Assembly: GCA_009844885.1 (NCBI GenBank)
Contig: VYAQ01000202.1
Coordinates: 1 to 33,033 of the forward strand
Origin: Gemmatimonadota bacterium
GTDB lineage: Bacteria; Gemmatimonadota; Gemmatimonadetes; Longimicrobiales; Gaopeijiaceae
Length of the DNA: 33,033 nucleotides
Direction of reading: 5' to 3'
The notes below the pieces were generated by a model. The model did not search any database, was not told where the DNA came from, and saw nothing but the letters and a program-made list of their open reading frames with translations. Made by a program: the position numbers and the translations under genes. Below, piece after piece: positions 11,840 to 19,911 of this stretch. The first letter of the stretch is position 1. The number at the start of each line of letters is the position of its first letter.

Positions 11840-12244
11840 CTATCGGGCGCCGTAGATCCCCACCTTGAGGGGTGGGTCGACCCACCAGTGGAAATGGAAG
11901 CGGTTCTCGCCTTCGACGATTACCGCCTCACGCCGTTCCCGGGTCTTGGGCCAGTCCTCGCGCCCGTTGTGGACGACGAGGACCTGCCCCGGTTGCAGGC
12001 GTTCGACCCACTGCGCCAGTGCGCGCTCAAGGTTGCGCAAGAGGTCTCTTTCCGCGTGCCGCTGCACCTCGGCGTCGGCGTCTGCTCCGATTTCGCCGGT
12101 CTCCAGCGCCTCGTAGCGCGCATCGAAGTCGGCCGCGGGGACCGAAAACGCACGGTCGCGCATGAAGCCGATCTCGTTGATCGCCGTCGGATTGAAATTG
12201 GTCTCGACGCTGTGGTAGGCGTTGCCGTATCTCCTCAGAATCAT
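11840..12244 (-). CDS. Conserved hypothetical protein, 134 aa, coupled to a DEAD-box helicase
   Basis: A cytosolic 134-residue protein without signal peptide or membrane segment. It starts MILRRYGNAYHSVETNFNPT, has an acidic helical middle (EIGADADAEVQRHAERDLLRNLERAL) and ends with beta-like, conserved-looking segments (PGQVLVVHNGREDWPKTRERRE; VIVEGENRFHFHWWVDPPLKVGIY). I do not recognise a named domain. The composition is clearly protein-like, and I have the impression that similar short proteins recur in Gemmatimonadota. Its ATG overlaps the TGA of the helicase gene (ATGA, 12241-12244), so it is translated with the helicase. A role in the same RNA process is an inference from that coupling. 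Confidence 0.8.
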   Translation of the reverse strand: MILRRYGNAYHSVETNFNPTAINEIGFMRDRAFSVPAADFDARYEALETGEIGADADAEVQRHAERDLLRNLERALAQWVERLQPGQVLVVHNGREDWPKTRERREAVIVEGENRFHFHWWVDPPLKVGIYGAR

Positions 12245-13512
12245 CGTTTCCGTCCTGGGGTGTCGTGGCTCAGAAGCGCGGCCAGTTCGTCGGGTTCCAG
12301 ACGCTTGCCAGCCTGGCTGCCCATGCCGCGTCCCGACCGGGAGCGCTTGCGCACAGGCTCCCGCCGCTCCAACACCGCGCCGCCGGCAAAGTCGTAGTCG
12401 GGGTGGTGTACCTTGTCGAGCCGGCGTTCCAGCTGGTGTTCCAGCGTACGGAAGGCGCCGAGGTCCGCCGCCGTGACGAAGGTGACGGCCTCGCCGGTCG
12501 CGCCCGCCCTGCCCGTACGGCCGGTACGGTGCACATAGTCGCCGGGGTCCAGCGGGACATCGTAGTTCACGACGTGCGAGATCCCCTCGATATCGAGGCC
12601 GCGCTGTGCGATGTCGGTGGCGACCAGAACCCGGACCTCGCCTGCCGTGAAACGGTCGATCGCGCGGGTGCGATGGCGCATGTGCCGGTCCGAGTGGATC
12701 ACGTCGGAAGAGATGCGCGCACTGTCGAGCCGCGACTTGAGGGTATCCGCGCCGATCTTCGTCCGGGTGAAGACGAGCACCTGTTCCCAGCCGGGCTGAC
12801 CGAGCAGATGAATCAGAAGGCTCGGCTTCATGTCGGGGCGAACCGAATACGCGATCTCCGAAATGCCCTGTGCCAGCGTACCCGATGGGGTCACCTCGAC
12901 CCAGGCGGGATCCCGGGTCATGCGCAGCGCCAGGTCGTGGACCGCGTTCGGCATCGTAGCCGAGAAAAGCAGGGTCTGCGGCCGCTTGCCCAGACCCCGC
13001 ACCACCTCCTCGATCTGGGGACGGAATCCCATGTCGAGCATCCGGTCGGCCTCGTCCAGAATCAGGAACCGCACGCTCTTCAGCTTCGCCGTGCCGCGAT
13101 TCTGCAGATCGATCAGCCGGCCGGGTGTGGCGACGATGACCTCGTCTCCGCGCTTGAAGGCATCCACCTGGGGCCCGTACGCGACCCCGCCGCACACCAC
13201 GGTCGAGCGTATGCCCGTGCCCAGCGCCAGAGCGTCGGTGTCGTCGCGGACCTGCTGCGCCAGCTCCCGCGTGGGACACAGGACCAGCACCTGAAGTCCC
13301 CCTCCCTCGGCCAGCCGCTCCAGCGCGGGGAGCATGAACGCGCCGGTCTTGCCTGTGCCGGTGCGGGCGATGCCGACGACGTCCCGGCCGCTCATGACCA
13401 GGGGGATCGCCTGCCGCTGGATGGAGGTCGGCTGCGTCCACCCCTGAGCTTCTACCGCGGCCAGGCGCGTTTCAGAAAGGCCGAAGCCCGAGAATTCCGT
13501 TGGTTCGGTCAA
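12241..13512 (-). CDS. DEAD-box RNA helicase, RhlE-like
   Basis: A 423-aa protein if it starts at TTG 13512 (M/LTEPTEFSGFGLSETRLAA), which aligns with the usual helicase N-terminus. A longer frame reaches 13899 but would run antisense through the phosphatase gene and across the 26-bp repeat. TTG 13599 with GAAGGT upstream is a second candidate. All helicase motifs are intact: Q motif GWTQPTSIQ, motif I ARTGTGKTG (about 49-57), Ia PTRELA, Ib TPGR, II DEAD (153-156), III SAT (184-186), V ATDIAQRGLDI and VI HRTGRTGRAG. The C-terminus is short and basic (VRKRSRSGRGMGSQAGKR). It should be an ATP-dependent RNA unwinding enzyme acting in the cytosol, for example in ribosome assembly or RNA decay. 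It is coupled to the 134-aa gene. Confidence 0.92.
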   Translation of the reverse strand: MTEPTEFSGFGLSETRLAAVEAQGWTQPTSIQRQAIPLVMSGRDVVGIARTGTGKTGAFMLPALERLAEGGGLQVLVLCPTRELAQQVRDDTDALALGTGIRSTVVCGGVAYGPQVDAFKRGDEVIVATPGRLIDLQNRGTAKLKSVRFLILDEADRMLDMGFRPQIEEVVRGLGKRPQTLLFSATMPNAVHDLALRMTRDPAWVEVTPSGTLAQGISEIAYSVRPDMKPSLLIHLLGQPGWEQVLVFTRTKIGADTLKSRLDSARISSDVIHSDRHMRHRTRAIDRFTAGEVRVLVATDIAQRGLDIEGISHVVNYDVPLDPGDYVHRTGRTGRAGATGEAVTFVTAADLGAFRTLEHQLERRLDKVHHPDYDFAGGAVLERREPVRKRSRSGRGMGSQAGKRLEPDELAALLSHDTPGRKR

Positions 13513-13615: not shown

Positions 13616-14164
13616 ATGTCCGACTCCAAGACCTCCGTCCTCTTCGTCTGCCTCGGGAACATCTGCCGCTCACCGCTGGCCGAGGGGATCTTCAGCCACC
13701 AGGCGGCGCTCCGCGGGCTGGCCGACCGATTCGAGGTCGATTCGGCCGGCACCGGGGCCTGGCACACGGGCGAGCCTCCCGACTCCCGTTCCATCGCCGT
13801 CGCGGCATCGCACGGTGTGCGCCTGACCGGGACCGCCCGCCAGGCTGTCATGGACGACTTCGGACGATTCGATGTGATCGTGGCCATGGACAGGAGCAAT
13901 CAGCGCTCGCTGGAGCGGCTGCGGGACGGCGGGACGCGGTGGGACCGCGGGCGTCGGCGTTACGGCCGTGGCAGCGGCGCAGCGCCACATGGCGGCCGGA
14001 ACCGGGCCCGCATTGTCATGATGCGCGACTACGACCCGAGCGGCAGCGATCCCGACGTGCCCGACCCCTACTACGGGGGGCCGGGTGGCTTCGAACAGGT
14101 CTACCGCATCCTGGAGCGGGCCTGTCGCGCGCTGCTCGAGGAACTGGCCAGGCCGGATCGCTGA
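13616..14164 (+). CDS. Low-molecular-weight protein tyrosine phosphatase family
   Basis: A 182-aa cytosolic phosphatase. The P-loop CLGNICRS (Cys12 nucleophile, Arg18) sits at the N-terminus as in all LMW-PTPs, and the general-acid segment appears as DPDVPDPYYGG, with Asp followed by Pro-Tyr. There is an arginine/glycine-rich insertion (about residues 100-127, RDGGTRWDRGRRRYGRG onward) that makes it longer than the usual 150-160 aa. ATG 13616 has only AGGA immediately before it, with a TAATAC -10-like element at 13602-13607, so a very short leader is possible. Next comes a fructosamine-kinase homologue four bases after the stop. In humans LMW-PTP-A acts on protein-bound ribulosamine-5-phosphate, so the neighbour suggests a deglycation role rather than signalling. 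Arsenate reductase activity is a less likely alternative. Confidence 0.88.
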   Translation: MSDSKTSVLFVCLGNICRSPLAEGIFSHQAALRGLADRFEVDSAGTGAWHTGEPPDSRSIAVAASHGVRLTGTARQAVMDDFGRFDVIVAMDRSNQRSLERLRDGGTRWDRGRRRYGRGSGAAPHGGRNRARIVMMRDYDPSGSDPDVPDPYYGGPGGFEQVYRILERACRALLEELARPDR

Positions 14165-14168
14165 GGGT

Positions 14169-15110
14169 GTGGCGCGAGTGGTCGAGGCCGTACTCGAAAG
14201 CGCCTGTCGCGCCGCGGGTCTGGACCGGTCGTCGGTGGAGTCCGTGCGGCCCATCGGCGGAGGATGCATCAACAATGCGCTGAAGATGTGTACAGCCGGA
14301 GGCAGTTTCTGCCTCAAGTGGAATGCCGGTGCCGGTAGAGACTTCTTCCGGATGGAGGCGGAGGGGCTGTCCGCGCTGGCCGACTCGGGCGCCGTCGAGG
14401 TCCCGCGTGTCATCGCGGTCGGCGGCGACGGGGACGAAGCCCCCTGGCTGCTTCTGGAGTGGATCGAGGAGGCCAGGGCGACCGGAGACACGTGGGCGCA
14501 ACTGGGGCATCGCCTGGCGAGACTGCACCGCACGCGCCAAGGCCGGTCGATTCCTGTCGGGCATGCACCCGGGTTCGGCTGGCACGGCGACAACGTCATC
14601 GGATCGCTGCCCCAGCCAAACCGATGGACGGACGATTGGGCGGAATTCTGGACCGAACTGCGCATCCTGCCGCTTGCACGGGAGCTGGGTGGCGACGGAA
14701 CCCTGTCGCGGAGCCGACTCGCGCTGGTGGAACGGGCCGCGGCCCGGATGAGCGACCTGCTTGCCCCCGCGGCCACCGCCGACGGGCCCTCATTGCTGCA
14801 CGGCGACCTCTGGTCGGGCAACGTCCTGTTCGGCCGGAGGCAGACGGTGCCGGACGCGGACCCCCTGCCGTTCCTGATCGACCCGGCTGTCTACGTCGGC
14901 CACCGCGAGGTGGACCTCGCCATGTGCCGGCTCTTCGGCGGCTTCCCCGCGCGATTCCGGAATGCCTACGAAGCCGTGTGGCCGCTGCTACCGGATCACG
15001 AGCGTCGCCTGCCGGCCTACCAGCTCTATCCGCTCCTCGTTCACGCGCGTCTTTTCGGAGGCGGGTACGCGGCGGCGGTCGCGAGGGCTGCCCAGGCTGT
15101 GCTCGGCTAG
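14169..15110 (+). CDS. Fructosamine/ribulosamine-3-kinase family protein
   Basis: A 313-aa kinase of the fructosamine kinase family, close to the family's usual 290-310 aa. The P-loop GGGCINNALKM contains Cys33, which corresponds to the redox-sensitive P-loop cysteine of this family. FCLKWNAG provides the ATP-binding Lys, and EAEGLSALAD is the conserved C-helix-like segment. GFGWHGDNVIG, the catalytic loop HGDLWSGNVLF (Asp213) and LIDPAVYVGHREVDLAMCRLFGGF are family signatures. It should phosphorylate O3 of sugar adducts on lysines, which then fall off spontaneously; bacterial members often prefer ribulosamines. GTG 14169 lies four bases after the phosphatase stop (GTG 14178 is an alternative), so the two are one operon. 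The TAG stop is shared antisense with the O-methyltransferase gene. Confidence 0.92.
   Translation: MARVVEAVLESACRAAGLDRSSVESVRPIGGGCINNALKMCTAGGSFCLKWNAGAGRDFFRMEAEGLSALADSGAVEVPRVIAVGGDGDEAPWLLLEWIEEARATGDTWAQLGHRLARLHRTRQGRSIPVGHAPGFGWHGDNVIGSLPQPNRWTDDWAEFWTELRILPLARELGGDGTLSRSRLALVERAAARMSDLLAPAATADGPSLLHGDLWSGNVLFGRRQTVPDADPLPFLIDPAVYVGHREVDLAMCRLFGGFPARFRNAYEAVWPLLPDHERRLPAYQLYPLLVHARLFGGGYAAAVARAAQAVLG
15107..15110. other. Palindromic CTAG carrying the stop codons of two convergent genes
   Basis: The four bases CTAG contain the TAG stop of the kinase (15108-15110, plus strand) and the TAG stop of the O-methyltransferase (15109-15107, minus strand). The two coding sequences therefore overlap tail-to-tail by four bases, and no intrinsic terminator can lie between them. 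Confidence 0.85.
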
Positions 15111-15808
15111 CGCCGCACTGCGAGCAGCAGGCCGTCTCCGACGGGCAGGATCGTGGCGTCGAACCGGGTGTCCGCCGAGACGACTCGGTTGAAGCGGTCC
15201 AGTTGCGCCGCCAGTTCGTCGGAATCGGGATCCAGCACCCGGCCAGCCCAAAACGCGTTGTCGGCCATGAGCAACCCACCGGGCCGGAGCAGCCCCGCGG
15301 CCATTTCCAGGTAGGTGGTGTAGCGCTCCTTGTCAGCGTCCAGGAAGACCACATCGAACGAACCGTCGGGTCCCAGCCCGGACATCACCGCAACCGCGTC
15401 CCCGACGCGTATGTCGACGCGGTCGCTCAGGCCCGCCGCCTCGACCGATTCGCGCGCGACCGCGGCGTGGTCGGCGTTGATCTCGATCGTGATCAGTTCG
15501 CCGTGCGAAGGGAGCGCCCGTGCGATCCAGACCGCCGAATACCCCGCCAGGGTGCCCACCTCCAGGACGCGGCGCGCGCCGGCCGCCCTGACCAGCACAT
15601 GGACGGCGCGCGCGGTGGCGGGCGGAAGCTGGATCCGGGGCATCCCGGCCTCGTCCGCGCGGCGGCGTATCTCGCGCAGCACGGCATCCTCGCCAGAAAA
15701 GTGGCGCTGGACGTACAGATCGAGCGCGTCGTGATCCAGTTCCGAGGGGTCCGGCGCGCCCGACGGAACGCGGTCCTCCACCCCGTCGTGACCGTCGCGA
15801 CCGCTCAC
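15107..15808 (-). CDS. Class I SAM-dependent O-methyltransferase (CCoAOMT-like, Methyltransf_3)
   Basis: A 233-aa methyltransferase. Residues 60-70 hold LPPATARAVHVL, a family helix. The SAM-binding motif I is VLEVGTLAGYSAVWIARALP (83-100), with an acidic strand end ITIEIN (about 106-111). VVFLDADKERYTTY (about 153-166) and MADNAFWAGRVLDP (about 181-194) provide the metal-binding Asp and Asp-Asn of the cation-dependent caffeoyl-CoA/catechol O-methyltransferase group. The substrate in bacteria of this type is unknown, with small catechol-like metabolites the usual assumption. The first 40 residues are poorly conserved in character, so a later start is possible. GTG 15808 overlaps the aminotransferase stop (GTGA), which favours it. 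Confidence 0.9.
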   Translation of the reverse strand: MSGRDGHDGVEDRVPSGAPDPSELDHDALDLYVQRHFSGEDAVLREIRRRADEAGMPRIQLPPATARAVHVLVRAAGARRVLEVGTLAGYSAVWIARALPSHGELITIEINADHAAVARESVEAAGLSDRVDIRVGDAVAVMSGLGPDGSFDVVFLDADKERYTTYLEMAAGLLRPGGLLMADNAFWAGRVLDPDSDELAAQLDRFNRVVSADTRFDATILPVGDGLLLAVRR

Positions 15809-16995
15809 GCCCGCGCCAGCACCCGCGCCATGCGCCGCACGCCCTCCTCGATCTCCTCGTCCGAAGACGCCGTGCTCATGCGTGCGTACCGCGCGTCCCC
15901 GAACGCCTCGCCCGGCACGATCGCCACGCCCGCCTCCTCCAGGACGCGCGTGCACACGTCACCGGCGCACGTCACCTCGTCGTCGAAGAGCCCGTCCACT
16001 CGGAAGTACAGGTAGAACGCGCCTCCGGGGCGGATATACGAACACCCGGGAAGGAGTTCGTCGAAGAGGCGCGCCACCAGGTCCCGGCGGCGGCGAAACG
16101 CGGCGACCATGCGGTCCCGGTCGCGCGCTCCCTCTTCACCCCGCGTCAGGCCCTTCAGCGCGGCGATCTGCGAAGGGGTCGCCGCGTTCAGCGACACATG
16201 GCTCTGCAGCGCCGACATCCTGGCCGCCAGCTCGCGGGTCGTGTACGAGAAGCCCACCCGCCACCCCGTCATGGCAAAGGCCTTCGACATGCCGTTCGTC
16301 ACCACCAGGTCGCCCACCCGGTCCGGGTCGAGGTCGAGCGCGCCCGGCGCCTTGACCCCCTCGCCGTAGTAGATCTCCTGGTAGATCTCGTCGGAGATCA
16401 GGGTAATGCCGCGCGCACCCGCCCACTCCGCGATCGCGGCCAGCTCGGCCTTCGAGTAGACGGCCCCGGTCGGGTTCGAGGGCGACGACAGGATCAGCCC
16501 CCTCGCGTTGGCGGTGGCGGCCGCTTCCAGGTCGTCGGGCGTGAGCAGGAAGTCGCGTTTCTCGCTCCCCATCACCGGCACCGAGTCGGCTCTGGCCAGG
16601 GTGACCATCTCGGGGTAAGAGGTCCAGTACGGCGATCCGATGAGCACGTCGTCGCCCGGCCCGAACAGGCAGAAGCACGCATTGAAGAGCGACTGTTTCG
16701 CCCCCGCCGAAACCACCACGCGTGCCGGGTCGGCCGGATAGTCCGTCCCGGCGGTCATGTACTCGGCCGCGGCCGCGCGCAGCTCCGGAAGCCCCGCCGC
16801 CGGAGTGTACCGCGTGCGTCCCTGGCGAATACCCTCGATCCCCGCCCCCGCGACCGGCTCCGGCGTGTCGAAGTCGGGCTCCCCCGCGCTCAGGTTGATG
16901 ATGTCCCGCCCCTCGGCCGCCAGCTTCTTCGCCAGGGTGCTCACGGCAACGGTGGCCGAGGGCCGCAGCTTCGCGATGTTTTCGGAGTAGGTCAT
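15805..16995 (-). CDS. Pyridoxal-phosphate aspartate/aromatic aminotransferase, class I (AAT Ib-like)
   Basis: A 396-aa fold-type I aminotransferase of normal length. INLSAGEPDFDTPEPV near the N-terminus, YTPAAGLPELRAA, SPYWTSYPEMV, SSPSNPTGAVYS, and ISDEIYQEIYY are standard. The PLP lysine is Lys238 in NGMSKAFAMTGWRVGF, and the C-terminal YARMSTASSDEEIEEG carries the substrate-carboxylate Arg. It should exchange amino groups between aspartate (or a related amino acid, possibly prephenate) and 2-oxoglutarate in the cytosol. ATG 16995 matches the family start (MTYSENIAKLRPSATV) but has no visible Shine-Dalgarno, so leaderless or short-leader translation is possible. It is divergent from the DsbA-fold gene over 101 bases and coupled to the methyltransferase downstream. 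Confidence 0.93.
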   Translation of the reverse strand: MTYSENIAKLRPSATVAVSTLAKKLAAEGRDIINLSAGEPDFDTPEPVAGAGIEGIRQGRTRYTPAAGLPELRAAAAEYMTAGTDYPADPARVVVSAGAKQSLFNACFCLFGPGDDVLIGSPYWTSYPEMVTLARADSVPVMGSEKRDFLLTPDDLEAAATANARGLILSSPSNPTGAVYSKAELAAIAEWAGARGITLISDEIYQEIYYGEGVKAPGALDLDPDRVGDLVVTNGMSKAFAMTGWRVGFSYTTRELAARMSALQSHVSLNAATPSQIAALKGLTRGEEGARDRDRMVAAFRRRRDLVARLFDELLPGCSYIRPGGAFYLYFRVDGLFDDEVTCAGDVCTRVLEEAGVAIVPGEAFGDARYARMSTASSDEEIEEGVRRMARVLARA

Positions 16996-17709: not shown

Positions 17710-18021
17710 ATGGCCGGATACGAGCGCAAGACGGCACTGCCGCCGGCGGACGTGCTGCAGAAGGCCGAGGAATGGCTGCCCGCCTACATCGGCCTGAAGC
17801 GGTCGAAGCACACATCCCATGGGGCCACGTACACCGGCGACGAGGGCACGGTCGTCCTGAGCGCGCACCGGCACGGCCCCTTCACCGAGGTGACGGCCCG
17901 CACCGACCGGTTGCGTACGTCGCGCATGGATTACGAGATCCAGCGCTTTCTGAACTGCTTGCCGTACGAATACGGCGACGCGGGCGGTCCCGGGTCGGGC
18001 GACCCGGACACGGTACAGTGA
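17710..18021 (+). CDS. Conserved hypothetical protein, 103 aa
   Basis: A cytosolic 103-residue protein. The first part is basic and helical (YERKTALPPADVLQKAEEWLPAYIGL), followed by strand-like, charged segments (SKHTSHGATYTGDEGTVVLSAH; GPFTEVTARTDRLRT) and a helix (MDYEIQRFLNCLPYEYG). The tail is glycine-rich. I do not recognise a domain. AAGGAA lies just before ATG 17710, with GAGGAG further upstream. It follows the DsbA-fold gene by 10 bases, and its TGA overlaps a GTG (GTGA, 18018-18021) of the degenerate DEAD-box gene. That overlap suggests co-translation and perhaps a shared RNA-related job. Confidence 0.75.
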   Translation: MAGYERKTALPPADVLQKAEEWLPAYIGLKRSKHTSHGATYTGDEGTVVLSAHRHGPFTEVTARTDRLRTSRMDYEIQRFLNCLPYEYGDAGGPGSGDPDTVQ

Positions 18022-19784
18022 CCGAGGCCGTCCCGCGCGCACCGGCAGCGGGGCAAGCGCCGGACCACCAGGCACCCATGGCCGACCCCGCCTCCTTCGA
18101 CGAACTGCCGCTCGGCCCCGAGACCGTGGCTGCGCTCGCGGCCGAGGGGATCGAGACGCCGACGCCATTCCAGGCTGCGGCCATCCCCGTCATCGCCCGT
18201 GGCAACGATCTGCTCGGCCGGGCGGGTCCCGGGAGCGGCACGATGGTGGCCTACGCCGCCCCCCTGAGCGAACGCCTCGAAGCGGGTGCGGGCTCCCCCT
18301 CCTGCCTCGTTCTTTGCACGGGCCAGCGTCAGGCCACCGAACTCGCGCGCTCGCTCGCAGGCCTGTGCGAGGCGGCCGGCGCACGCGCGGCGGCACTCAC
18401 CCACCGGTGGAATCTCCCCGAGCGGGCCGATTTCCTCGTGGTGCCCGCCGACCGCTTCCCGGCCGTGTACGATGGCACGGTTGCACTGAAACACCTTCGG
18501 GCTGTCGTGTTCCACGACGGCGACGGGGTCGTCGCCAGCGTCGCGGCCGATCACCTGGAGGCCTTTCTCGGGGGCCTGCCCGGCGACTGCCAGCGCATCG
18601 TGTGCGGCTTGCCGTTCGGCCCCGCGCTGCACTCGCTGGCAAAACGGTTTACGCGGCGCGCCGTCAGCGTACCTCCCGGTCCACGGCCCGGCACGACGGT
18701 CGGTCGCGACGCAGGCAGCACGAAACATCGCACTCGGGGGCGGAGACGCCACGCCGCGACCGGCGACCAAGCGCGCACGCTGCAAGTGGTGGTGACCGCC
18801 GGCGACCGCGCCGAGGCCGCGCTGGACCAGACGGCCGAATTGCTTCAGGATCCGGTGCGCCACGTCCTGGTTTTCACGACTTCGGCCGATCACGCGGCAG
18901 ACCTGGGCGATTTCCTCGCCACCCACGGGTACCAGCCCGGACCGCCGGGCGACGAGTCCGTACCCGTGTGGATCTCGCCCGGCGAGGACGCAGCCGGGCG
19001 GGCAGCGCTGGACGCTGCAACCGATCCCGCCGCCATCGCGACCCTGTCGGCCCTGGTGCCCCCCGGCGCCGAAGTCGCGACGATCCGTCACGGCGCCGGC
19101 GGTCCGGCCCGAGTGCTGGCGGAGATTCGCGAGCTGACGCACCTGAAGGGCGTGGCCGCCGAAGCGGGCTTCACCCTCAAACGGTTGCGCCCGGCCCGCC
19201 CGCAACGCGTCTCCGCGACGCTGGACCAGCTGGCCGACGACCTTCATGGAGCGGCGCGGGCCCCGGAGATCGCGCCCTACTATCTGCTCGTGGAGTCGCT
19301 GCTGGACCGCTTTTCGGCCGCCGAAATGGCCGCCGCCGCCCTTCTGTTGCTCGACCGCAAGACGCCGAAGAAGGACGCTGCCGCCGTGGGCGCAGGCAGC
19401 GCGGCCGCGCCGGAGAGCTGGGTCAGGCTGTTCGTGTCGGCGGGCCAGCGCGACGAGGTCGGACCGCGCGAACTGCTCGGGGCCCTGACGAACCAATCCG
19501 GCGTTCCGGGCAACAGGGTCGGCAGGATCGATGTGCGCGAAAGCCATTCCCTGATCGAGGTGAGGGAAGGCGATGCGAAGAAGGTGATCTCGGCGCTCAA
19601 CGGCACCACGCTGGCCGGGCGCAGCCTGCGCGTGGACTACGACCGGGCGAAGGACAGGCGGCCGGCCGGCGGAGGCCGCCCGCCTGGGAGGGATCGGCGC
19701 CCGGTCAGGCCGCCATTTCGTCCCGGCGGCGCCGGAACATCCGGTAAAGGAGGTAGCCGGCCGCGACGAAGAGACCGATCTTGA
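18018..19784 (+). CDS. DEAD-box-like protein with degenerate catalytic motifs and a DbpA-type RNA-binding domain (pseudo-helicase)
   Basis: A 588-aa protein from GTG 18018; ATG 18078 (MADPASFDELPL) is an equally reasonable start, giving 568 aa. The architecture is that of CsdA/DbpA: Q-motif region SFDELPLGPETVAAL with ETPTPFQ (Gln52), two RecA-like lobes, a helical dimerisation-like segment (about 400-445), a DbpA RNA-binding domain (about 465-545; SWVRLFVSAGQRDEVGPREL, NRVGRIDVRESHSLIEV, GRSLRVDYDRAK) and an Arg/Gly-rich tail. The catalytic motifs are gone: motif I reads RAGPGSGT (68-75, no Lys), DEAD reads HDGD (166-169), SAT reads GLP, and motif VI reads IRHGAGGPAR. The frame is uninterrupted over its whole length, so it is not a fresh pseudogene. 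I infer an RNA-binding scaffold or regulator that does not hydrolyse ATP. It overlaps the small membrane-protein gene tail-to-tail by 80 bases. Confidence 0.85.
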   Translation: MTEAVPRAPAAGQAPDHQAPMADPASFDELPLGPETVAALAAEGIETPTPFQAAAIPVIARGNDLLGRAGPGSGTMVAYAAPLSERLEAGAGSPSCLVLCTGQRQATELARSLAGLCEAAGARAAALTHRWNLPERADFLVVPADRFPAVYDGTVALKHLRAVVFHDGDGVVASVAADHLEAFLGGLPGDCQRIVCGLPFGPALHSLAKRFTRRAVSVPPGPRPGTTVGRDAGSTKHRTRGRRRHAATGDQARTLQVVVTAGDRAEAALDQTAELLQDPVRHVLVFTTSADHAADLGDFLATHGYQPGPPGDESVPVWISPGEDAAGRAALDAATDPAAIATLSALVPPGAEVATIRHGAGGPARVLAEIRELTHLKGVAAEAGFTLKRLRPARPQRVSATLDQLADDLHGAARAPEIAPYYLLVESLLDRFSAAEMAAAALLLLDRKTPKKDAAAVGAGSAAAPESWVRLFVSAGQRDEVGPRELLGALTNQSGVPGNRVGRIDVRESHSLIEVREGDAKKVISALNGTTLAGRSLRVDYDRAKDRRPAGGGRPPGRDRRPVRPPFRPGGAGTSGKGGSRPRRRDRS

Positions 19785-19911
19785 AGGCCAGGGCCATGAA
19801 TCCGAACAACATCCCGAGCAGGGGAATCGCGGCCGCCACCAGCAGCTTCAACAACACGACACTTACGGCTCCCGTGACCGCGACCGCGCCCAAAGTCCTC
19901 ACCATCTGCAT
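19705..19911 (-). CDS. Small membrane protein, 68 aa
   Basis: A 68-residue protein with an N-terminal hydrophobic stretch (AVAVTGAVSVVLLKLLVAAAIPLLG), a second (MLFGFMALAFKIGLFVAAGYLLY) and a basic C-terminus (RMFRRRRDEMAA), consistent with two transmembrane helices and a cytosolic tail. AAGGAG (minus strand, 19925-19920) lies eight bases before ATG 19911, a good ribosome site. The last 80 bases are antisense to the Arg/Gly-rich tail of the pseudo-helicase gene. No family is recognised. The hydrophobic pattern and the ribosome site make a spurious frame unlikely. Confidence 0.72.
   Translation of the reverse strand: MQMVRTLGAVAVTGAVSVVLLKLLVAAAIPLLGMLFGFMALAFKIGLFVAAGYLLYRMFRRRRDEMAA

Follow-up and report, generated by a model that had tools for sequence, protein, structure and literature searches.

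The DNA analysed here is a 33,033-nucleotide stretch of a Gemmatimonadota genome (the window), and the gene of interest, a relative of the DbpA-type DEAD-box helicases that we refer to as the pseudohelicase, lies in an open frame on its plus strand (18018-19784). The frame is uninterrupted throughout, in agreement with an earlier note on this DNA. The same note had placed the start of the protein at GTG 18018, which would give a product of 588 aa. However, in two close relatives (genomes G017 and G001) the GTG that overlaps the stop codon of the upstream gene runs into a TGA and is not in frame with a conserved ATG, whose equivalent here is at 18078. The GTG was therefore ruled out, and the gene is likely to extend from ATG 18078 to 19784 (568 aa); residue numbers are counted from 18018 throughout.

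The pseudohelicase gene is directly preceded by a 103-aa frame on the same strand (17710-18021), named upORF here, and its last 80 bases overlap a minus-strand ORF (19705-19911). This convergent overlap with the 3' tail involves a predicted membrane protein of 68 aa that is 95-100% identical in close relatives. The upORF product has no match in Pfam or PHROG; its predicted fold (beta-alpha-beta4-alpha) gives weak structural matches to Aha1/KA1/BamC-like proteins, none of them at E<=0.001 in Foldseek. Members of the upORF family, of about 100 aa, are widespread in Gemmatimonadota. About 4.5 kb upstream of the pseudohelicase, a minus-strand gene (12241-13512) encodes an RhlE-like DEAD-box helicase, and between this gene and the aminotransferase gene lie a fructosamine kinase (14085-15110, plus strand; Pfam E=8.6e-75) and an O-methyltransferase (15107-15955, minus strand; Pfam E=2.6e-47). 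The RhlE-like helicase had been put forward as a direct comparison for the pseudohelicase. It is indeed intact, but it has no DbpA RNA-binding domain (RBD) and is thus the wrong paralogue to serve as sole comparison; the proper comparison is with the intact DbpA-RBD helicases of the order, which we used instead.

Architecture of the encoded protein

The protein consists of two RecA-like lobes (18096-18671, residues 27-218, and 18774-19190, residues 253-391), a helical segment at the place of the DeaD/Hera dimerisation domain (19203-19361, residues 396-448), a DbpA-type RBD (19419-19640, residues 468-541) with VDYDR next to it (539-543), and a disordered, poorly conserved basic tail rich in Arg, Gly and Pro (19650-19784), all on the plus strand. 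With active DEAD-box helicases it has in common the Q motif (PTPFQ, residues 48-52) and the two lobes, and it lacks their motif I (AxTGxGKT), motif II (DEAD) and motif VI (HRxGRxGR). The earlier note had described every ATPase and helicase motif as altered and the Q motif as kept, and the strings are exactly those it gave. Motif I reads RAGPGSGT (68-75), its GPGSGT being without Lys, motif II reads HDGD (166-169) and motif III GLP (197-199, within CGLPFG), and motifs Ia and Ib are unrecognisable. In lobe 2, motif V is gone and motif VI has become IRHGAGGPAR (356-365), of the form RH-GxGGPA. In Pfam, the RBD (PF03880) is found above the cut-off at residues 470-539 (E=1.9e-21), the DEAD domain gives a marginal match at residues 49-194 (E=2.3e-6), and Helicase_C has no match in the protein. 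The score of the NCBIfam DbpA equivalog is not reached (91.4 bits against 524 bits).

An AlphaFold2 model computed from 46 homologues and orthologues (mean pLDDT 83.8) contains two RecA-like lobes, helices at 396-448 and an RRM-like fold at 468-541. The pLDDT is mostly above 90 in the lobes and the RBD, near 70 for the helices, and low for residues 219-252, 449-466 and the tail; the orientation of the lobes and the geometry of the pocket are unreliable because the pTM of the model is 0.68. By fold, the PDB entry that ranks first is 7pli, E. coli DbpA (E=4.3e-22), and CshA and Hera come next, with low whole-chain TM-scores that are plausibly explained by a different orientation of the domains; the top PDB match by sequence is Hera. 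The Q motif, the two lobes and the RBD are retained, as the earlier note had claimed. Its dimerisation-like helices are present in the model, but the DeaD dimerisation domain (PF25399) stays below the cut-off (E=0.047, 14.2 bits against 23), and the basic tail is weakly constrained.

A single clade with eroded helicase motifs

Full-length homologues with 64-88% identity occur in 21 of the 22 other genomes of the same genus, and homologues at roughly 31-44% identity in other genera of the family and order. Our survey covered 297 sampled genomes, all from the phylum Gemmatimonadota. Scores that the pseudohelicase clade alone attains were found in nearly all genomes of the three families of the order (Longimicrobiales) and in most of those of family f9, one further f9 genome having a partial frame only; family f7 holds more degenerate relatives. 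RBD helicases fetched from families f4 and f5 are intact, and several f1 and f3 genomes encode both an intact paralogue and the pseudohelicase. A search for viral relatives gave one match only, with intact DEAD motifs. In the window genus, 22 of 23 genomes have one DbpA-RBD gene each in the PF03880 search; since this gene is the pseudohelicase, no RBD-bearing active DbpA was seen in them, and a DbpA-domain match in a genome may not mean that a DbpA helicase is present.

In a phylogenetic tree (IQ-TREE, LG+C20, 98 rows and 500 columns, with RhlE-type proteins as the outgroup), the 73 pseudohelicases form one clade (support 100/100) with a long stem branch (1.23 changes per column). Its sister group consists of 15 intact DbpA-RBD helicases (92/76), and the branches inside it track the genome families, of which there are five in the class (f1, f2, f3, f9 and f7). 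The clade arose once and is vertically distributed. Three proteins from families f6/f4 (L139, L140 and L141, of genomes G278, G212 and G241) were left out of the tree; they keep the DbpA RBD and have a core so eroded that the P-loop is unrecognisable, and are possibly further-degenerated or independent cases.

Each motif is present in 15 of 15 intact relatives. In the clade, motifs VI and Ib are lost without exception (HRxGRxGR 0/73, TPGR 0/73), DExD, SAT and ARGLD are each left in one of the 73 members and PTRE in two. The Lys-Thr/Ser of the P-loop is lost in 63 members, the Lys being absent from every one in f1, f2 and f7, and GxGK[ST] is kept in ten (8/8 of f3 and 2/3 of f9). The Q-motif Gln is present in 62/73, the Q motif being lost in f7, and both P-loop glycines in 73/73. 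The only DExD of the clade, in an f7 protein (L115, genome G165), reads DEAD and occurs together with loss of the P-loop Lys, so that motifs were not lost in the same sequence in all lineages. Since the RNA-backbone motifs Ia, Ib and V have also disappeared, it is probable, judged by the established functions of these motifs, that the core no longer hydrolyses ATP and no longer clamps duplexes in the canonical way.

Nucleotide binding may persist in f3 and in part of f9, where GxGK[ST] is still there, and one could imagine a core that acts as a nucleotide-regulated, non-hydrolysing switch, binding nucleotide through the Q motif and the Gly-rich loop and changing shape. The frequency of the Q-motif Gln, the universal P-loop glycines and the GxGK[ST] of f3 and two f9 members would suit such a switch, which we nonetheless consider improbable given that the Walker A Lys is gone in f1, f2 and f7, the last of which has no Q motif either, and that no member has the motif VI arginines and only one the Walker B Glu. 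An active helicase with non-canonical catalytic residues is far less probable still. The two-lobe fold is kept, and HDGD, the form of motif II in the window genus and two sister genera, retains acidic residues; however, motif II reads DGAS in f3 and DQAS or DDVR, among others, elsewhere, and no replacement Lys or Arg stands out, R61 being the only one in those columns of the lobes that are conserved across the clade.

Selection on the core and the RNA-binding domain

Selection was estimated from pairwise NG86 omega values in 13 within-genus pairs, which are pairwise counts and not a tree-based likelihood test. Omega was 0.14-0.27 for the whole gene. Lobe 1 gave 0.08-0.25, lobe 2 gave 0.13-0.44 and the RBD 0-0.20, with at most 0.11 in 12 of the 13 pairs. 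The tail, with omega of 0.3-1.3, is under weak constraint, and both it and the disordered linker (219-252) evolve fast, at values much above the rest of the gene. In the close pairs of the window, omega was 0.16-0.22 for the pseudohelicase, 0.06-0.08 for its RBD and 0.07-0.11 for the intact RhlE-like neighbour. H166-D167-G168-D169 is invariant in all 24 close members (22 from the genus and two proteins from sister genera), in which the codons of both Asp residues vary synonymously between GAC and GAT and other Gly codons vary freely. The earlier note had suggested a test for purifying selection on the RBD and on the altered motif positions, and the low omega and the invariant HDGD in the aligned homologues show it for both.

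The distribution of conservation along the protein is inverted: the clade is best conserved in the RBD (mean identity between families 50%, against 25-29% for the lobes), whereas its intact relatives are best conserved in the core (68-70% for the lobes, against 56% for the RBD). Positions that are invariant in the intact group are kept by less than half of the clade in 90 of 124 cases in the lobes and in two of nine cases in the RBD.

The many altered motifs and the fast evolution of the linker and tail could suggest a pseudogene in decay, or an error of sequencing or assembly. The earlier note had named orthologues with intact motifs in related genomes, together with relaxed selection on this copy, as signs of decay, and both were looked for; all 73 members lack motifs VI and Ib, selection is purifying, full-length open orthologues occur in independent assemblies across the order, and the new motif residues are invariant. 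Decay is thus refuted by the orthologues, the omega values and the tree, and we give this explanation almost no weight. The window gene is, from its sequence, close to certain to be a conserved pseudohelicase, and its near-universal presence in the sampled relatives of the order, together with its maintenance by selection, makes it probably a working factor.

RNA binding, possible targets and precedents

DbpA and YxiN are bacterial DEAD-box helicases whose RBD binds hairpin 92 of the 23S rRNA. The pseudohelicase resembles them in its RecA1-RecA2-RBD order, the family of its RBD, their position as its sister group and its best fold match; it differs from them by the loss of the ATPase and unwinding motifs, by its additional dimerisation-like helices and conserved VDYDR end, and by the displacement of conservation from the core to the RBD. 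Hera of Thermus and DeaD/CsdA have the core, dimerisation segment, RBD and basic tail in the same order, but Hera and DeaD are active dimeric ATPases, whereas for the pseudohelicase dimerisation is no more than suggested.

The RBD of the window protein is closest to DbpA-type domains and likely binds RNA. The RBDs of YxiN and Hera share three main-chain contacts to guanine, which in YxiN involve I436, G437 and I439 (PMC3695512); mapped by hand, these residues align with V501, G502 and I504, and G502 is invariant in the 46-member alignment. YxiN Lys427, which contacts a base, corresponds to N492 in the window protein and to Gly in E. coli DbpA, so that the RBD may or may not be specific for hairpin 92. 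The 23S rRNA or the pre-50S particle is probably the target, and is our favoured guess.

We propose that an ancestral Gemmatimonadota DbpA-type helicase was duplicated, and that one of the duplicates ceased to hydrolyse ATP and to clamp RNA duplexes. This copy would have retained its RBD together with the scaffold of two lobes and the dimerisation-like helices, and has been inherited vertically ever since. Its RBD would probably dock onto structured RNA in the pre-50S particle, by homology hairpin 92 of the 23S rRNA or a G-containing single strand close to it, while the inert core would be a scaffold for protein or RNP contacts that holds or protects the maturing region or keeps an active helicase out. 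The pseudohelicase would thus likely be a non-enzymatic RNA-binding factor that works through its RBD. We regard the whole reading, that of a DbpA-descended, ATP-independent factor with an inert-core scaffold and an RBD probably on 23S rRNA or pre-50S, as moderately probable; within it, we infer the absence of ATPase activity, the RNA target, the link to the ribosome and the scaffold role. A more tentative extension, to which we would give somewhat less than even chances, is that the pseudohelicase is a class-wide, ATP-independent factor for 50S assembly around the peptidyl-transferase centre, which functionally replaces DbpA in the window genus and is a bacterial counterpart of Utp25. If so, the f3 and two f9 proteins with an intact P-loop, the f1 and f2 proteins without one and the f7 proteins that have no Q motif would record a stepwise loss of the ATPase.

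Pseudoenzymes have been much studied among kinases and hardly among RNA helicases. Our literature search, which was thin on subscription journals, found no paper on a bacterial DEAD-box pseudohelicase or on this family, and gave two precedents, Utp25 (eukaryotic, DEAD-box) and PriA (bacterial, DNA). Utp25/Def is a pseudohelicase of the eukaryotic small-subunit processome, with a DEAD-box fold and vestigial motifs kept by selection (PMC9539457), and the same combination of a helicase fold with vestigial motifs and retention by selection was found here. It differs in being eukaryotic, in acting in small-subunit biogenesis and in having a disordered N-terminal accessory region and no described DbpA RBD (PMC9539457); the two presumably arose independently. 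PriA of Deinococcus radiodurans is also reported to keep a bacterial helicase fold without helicase activity, but is a DNA replication-restart protein and not a DEAD-box RNA protein (PMC4504706). The family described here is bacterial and of single origin; it includes graded intermediates, has an RBD of a known kind and shares some of its genomes with intact paralogues. It allows a direct test of what a DEAD-box protein does after evolution has removed ATP hydrolysis, and of whether RBD-guided binding alone helps ribosome assembly.

The neighbourhood of the gene bears on another explanation, in which the pseudohelicase acts on non-ribosomal RNAs as a post-transcriptional regulator or RNA chaperone, perhaps with the nearby RhlE-like helicase and the upORF protein. 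The RhlE gene is a conserved neighbour a few kb away throughout f1, and the order AspAT (minus), DsbA, upORF and pseudohelicase (all plus) is kept across most of f1 and f2, where upORF adjoins the pseudohelicase in most members. Moreover, the Hera RBD, which is of the same kind, was judged not to be specifically linked to ribosome biogenesis (PMC3695512), and the pseudohelicase gene is missing from some genomes. However, RhlE was not found near the f2 and f3 loci and lies on the opposite strand, upORF also occurs without the pseudohelicase, and the RBD is nearest to DbpA-type domains, so that we consider a non-ribosomal target unlikely, and retain 23S rRNA or pre-50S as the favoured one.

The upORF protein is better conserved than the pseudohelicase (omega 0-0.13). 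Its gene is found without the pseudohelicase in f4/f5 genomes and in genomes G011 and G137, which rules out an obligate pair and indicates that the two are only loosely linked. In G137 (locus L156, below 4054) the AspAT-DsbA-upORF block is intact with no trace of the pseudohelicase after it, and in G011 (locus L161) the pseudohelicase is absent and upORF is retained. The pseudohelicase is therefore dispensable in some lineages and not universally essential, and these two genomes, with a clean absence beside an intact upORF, are useful natural knock-outs.
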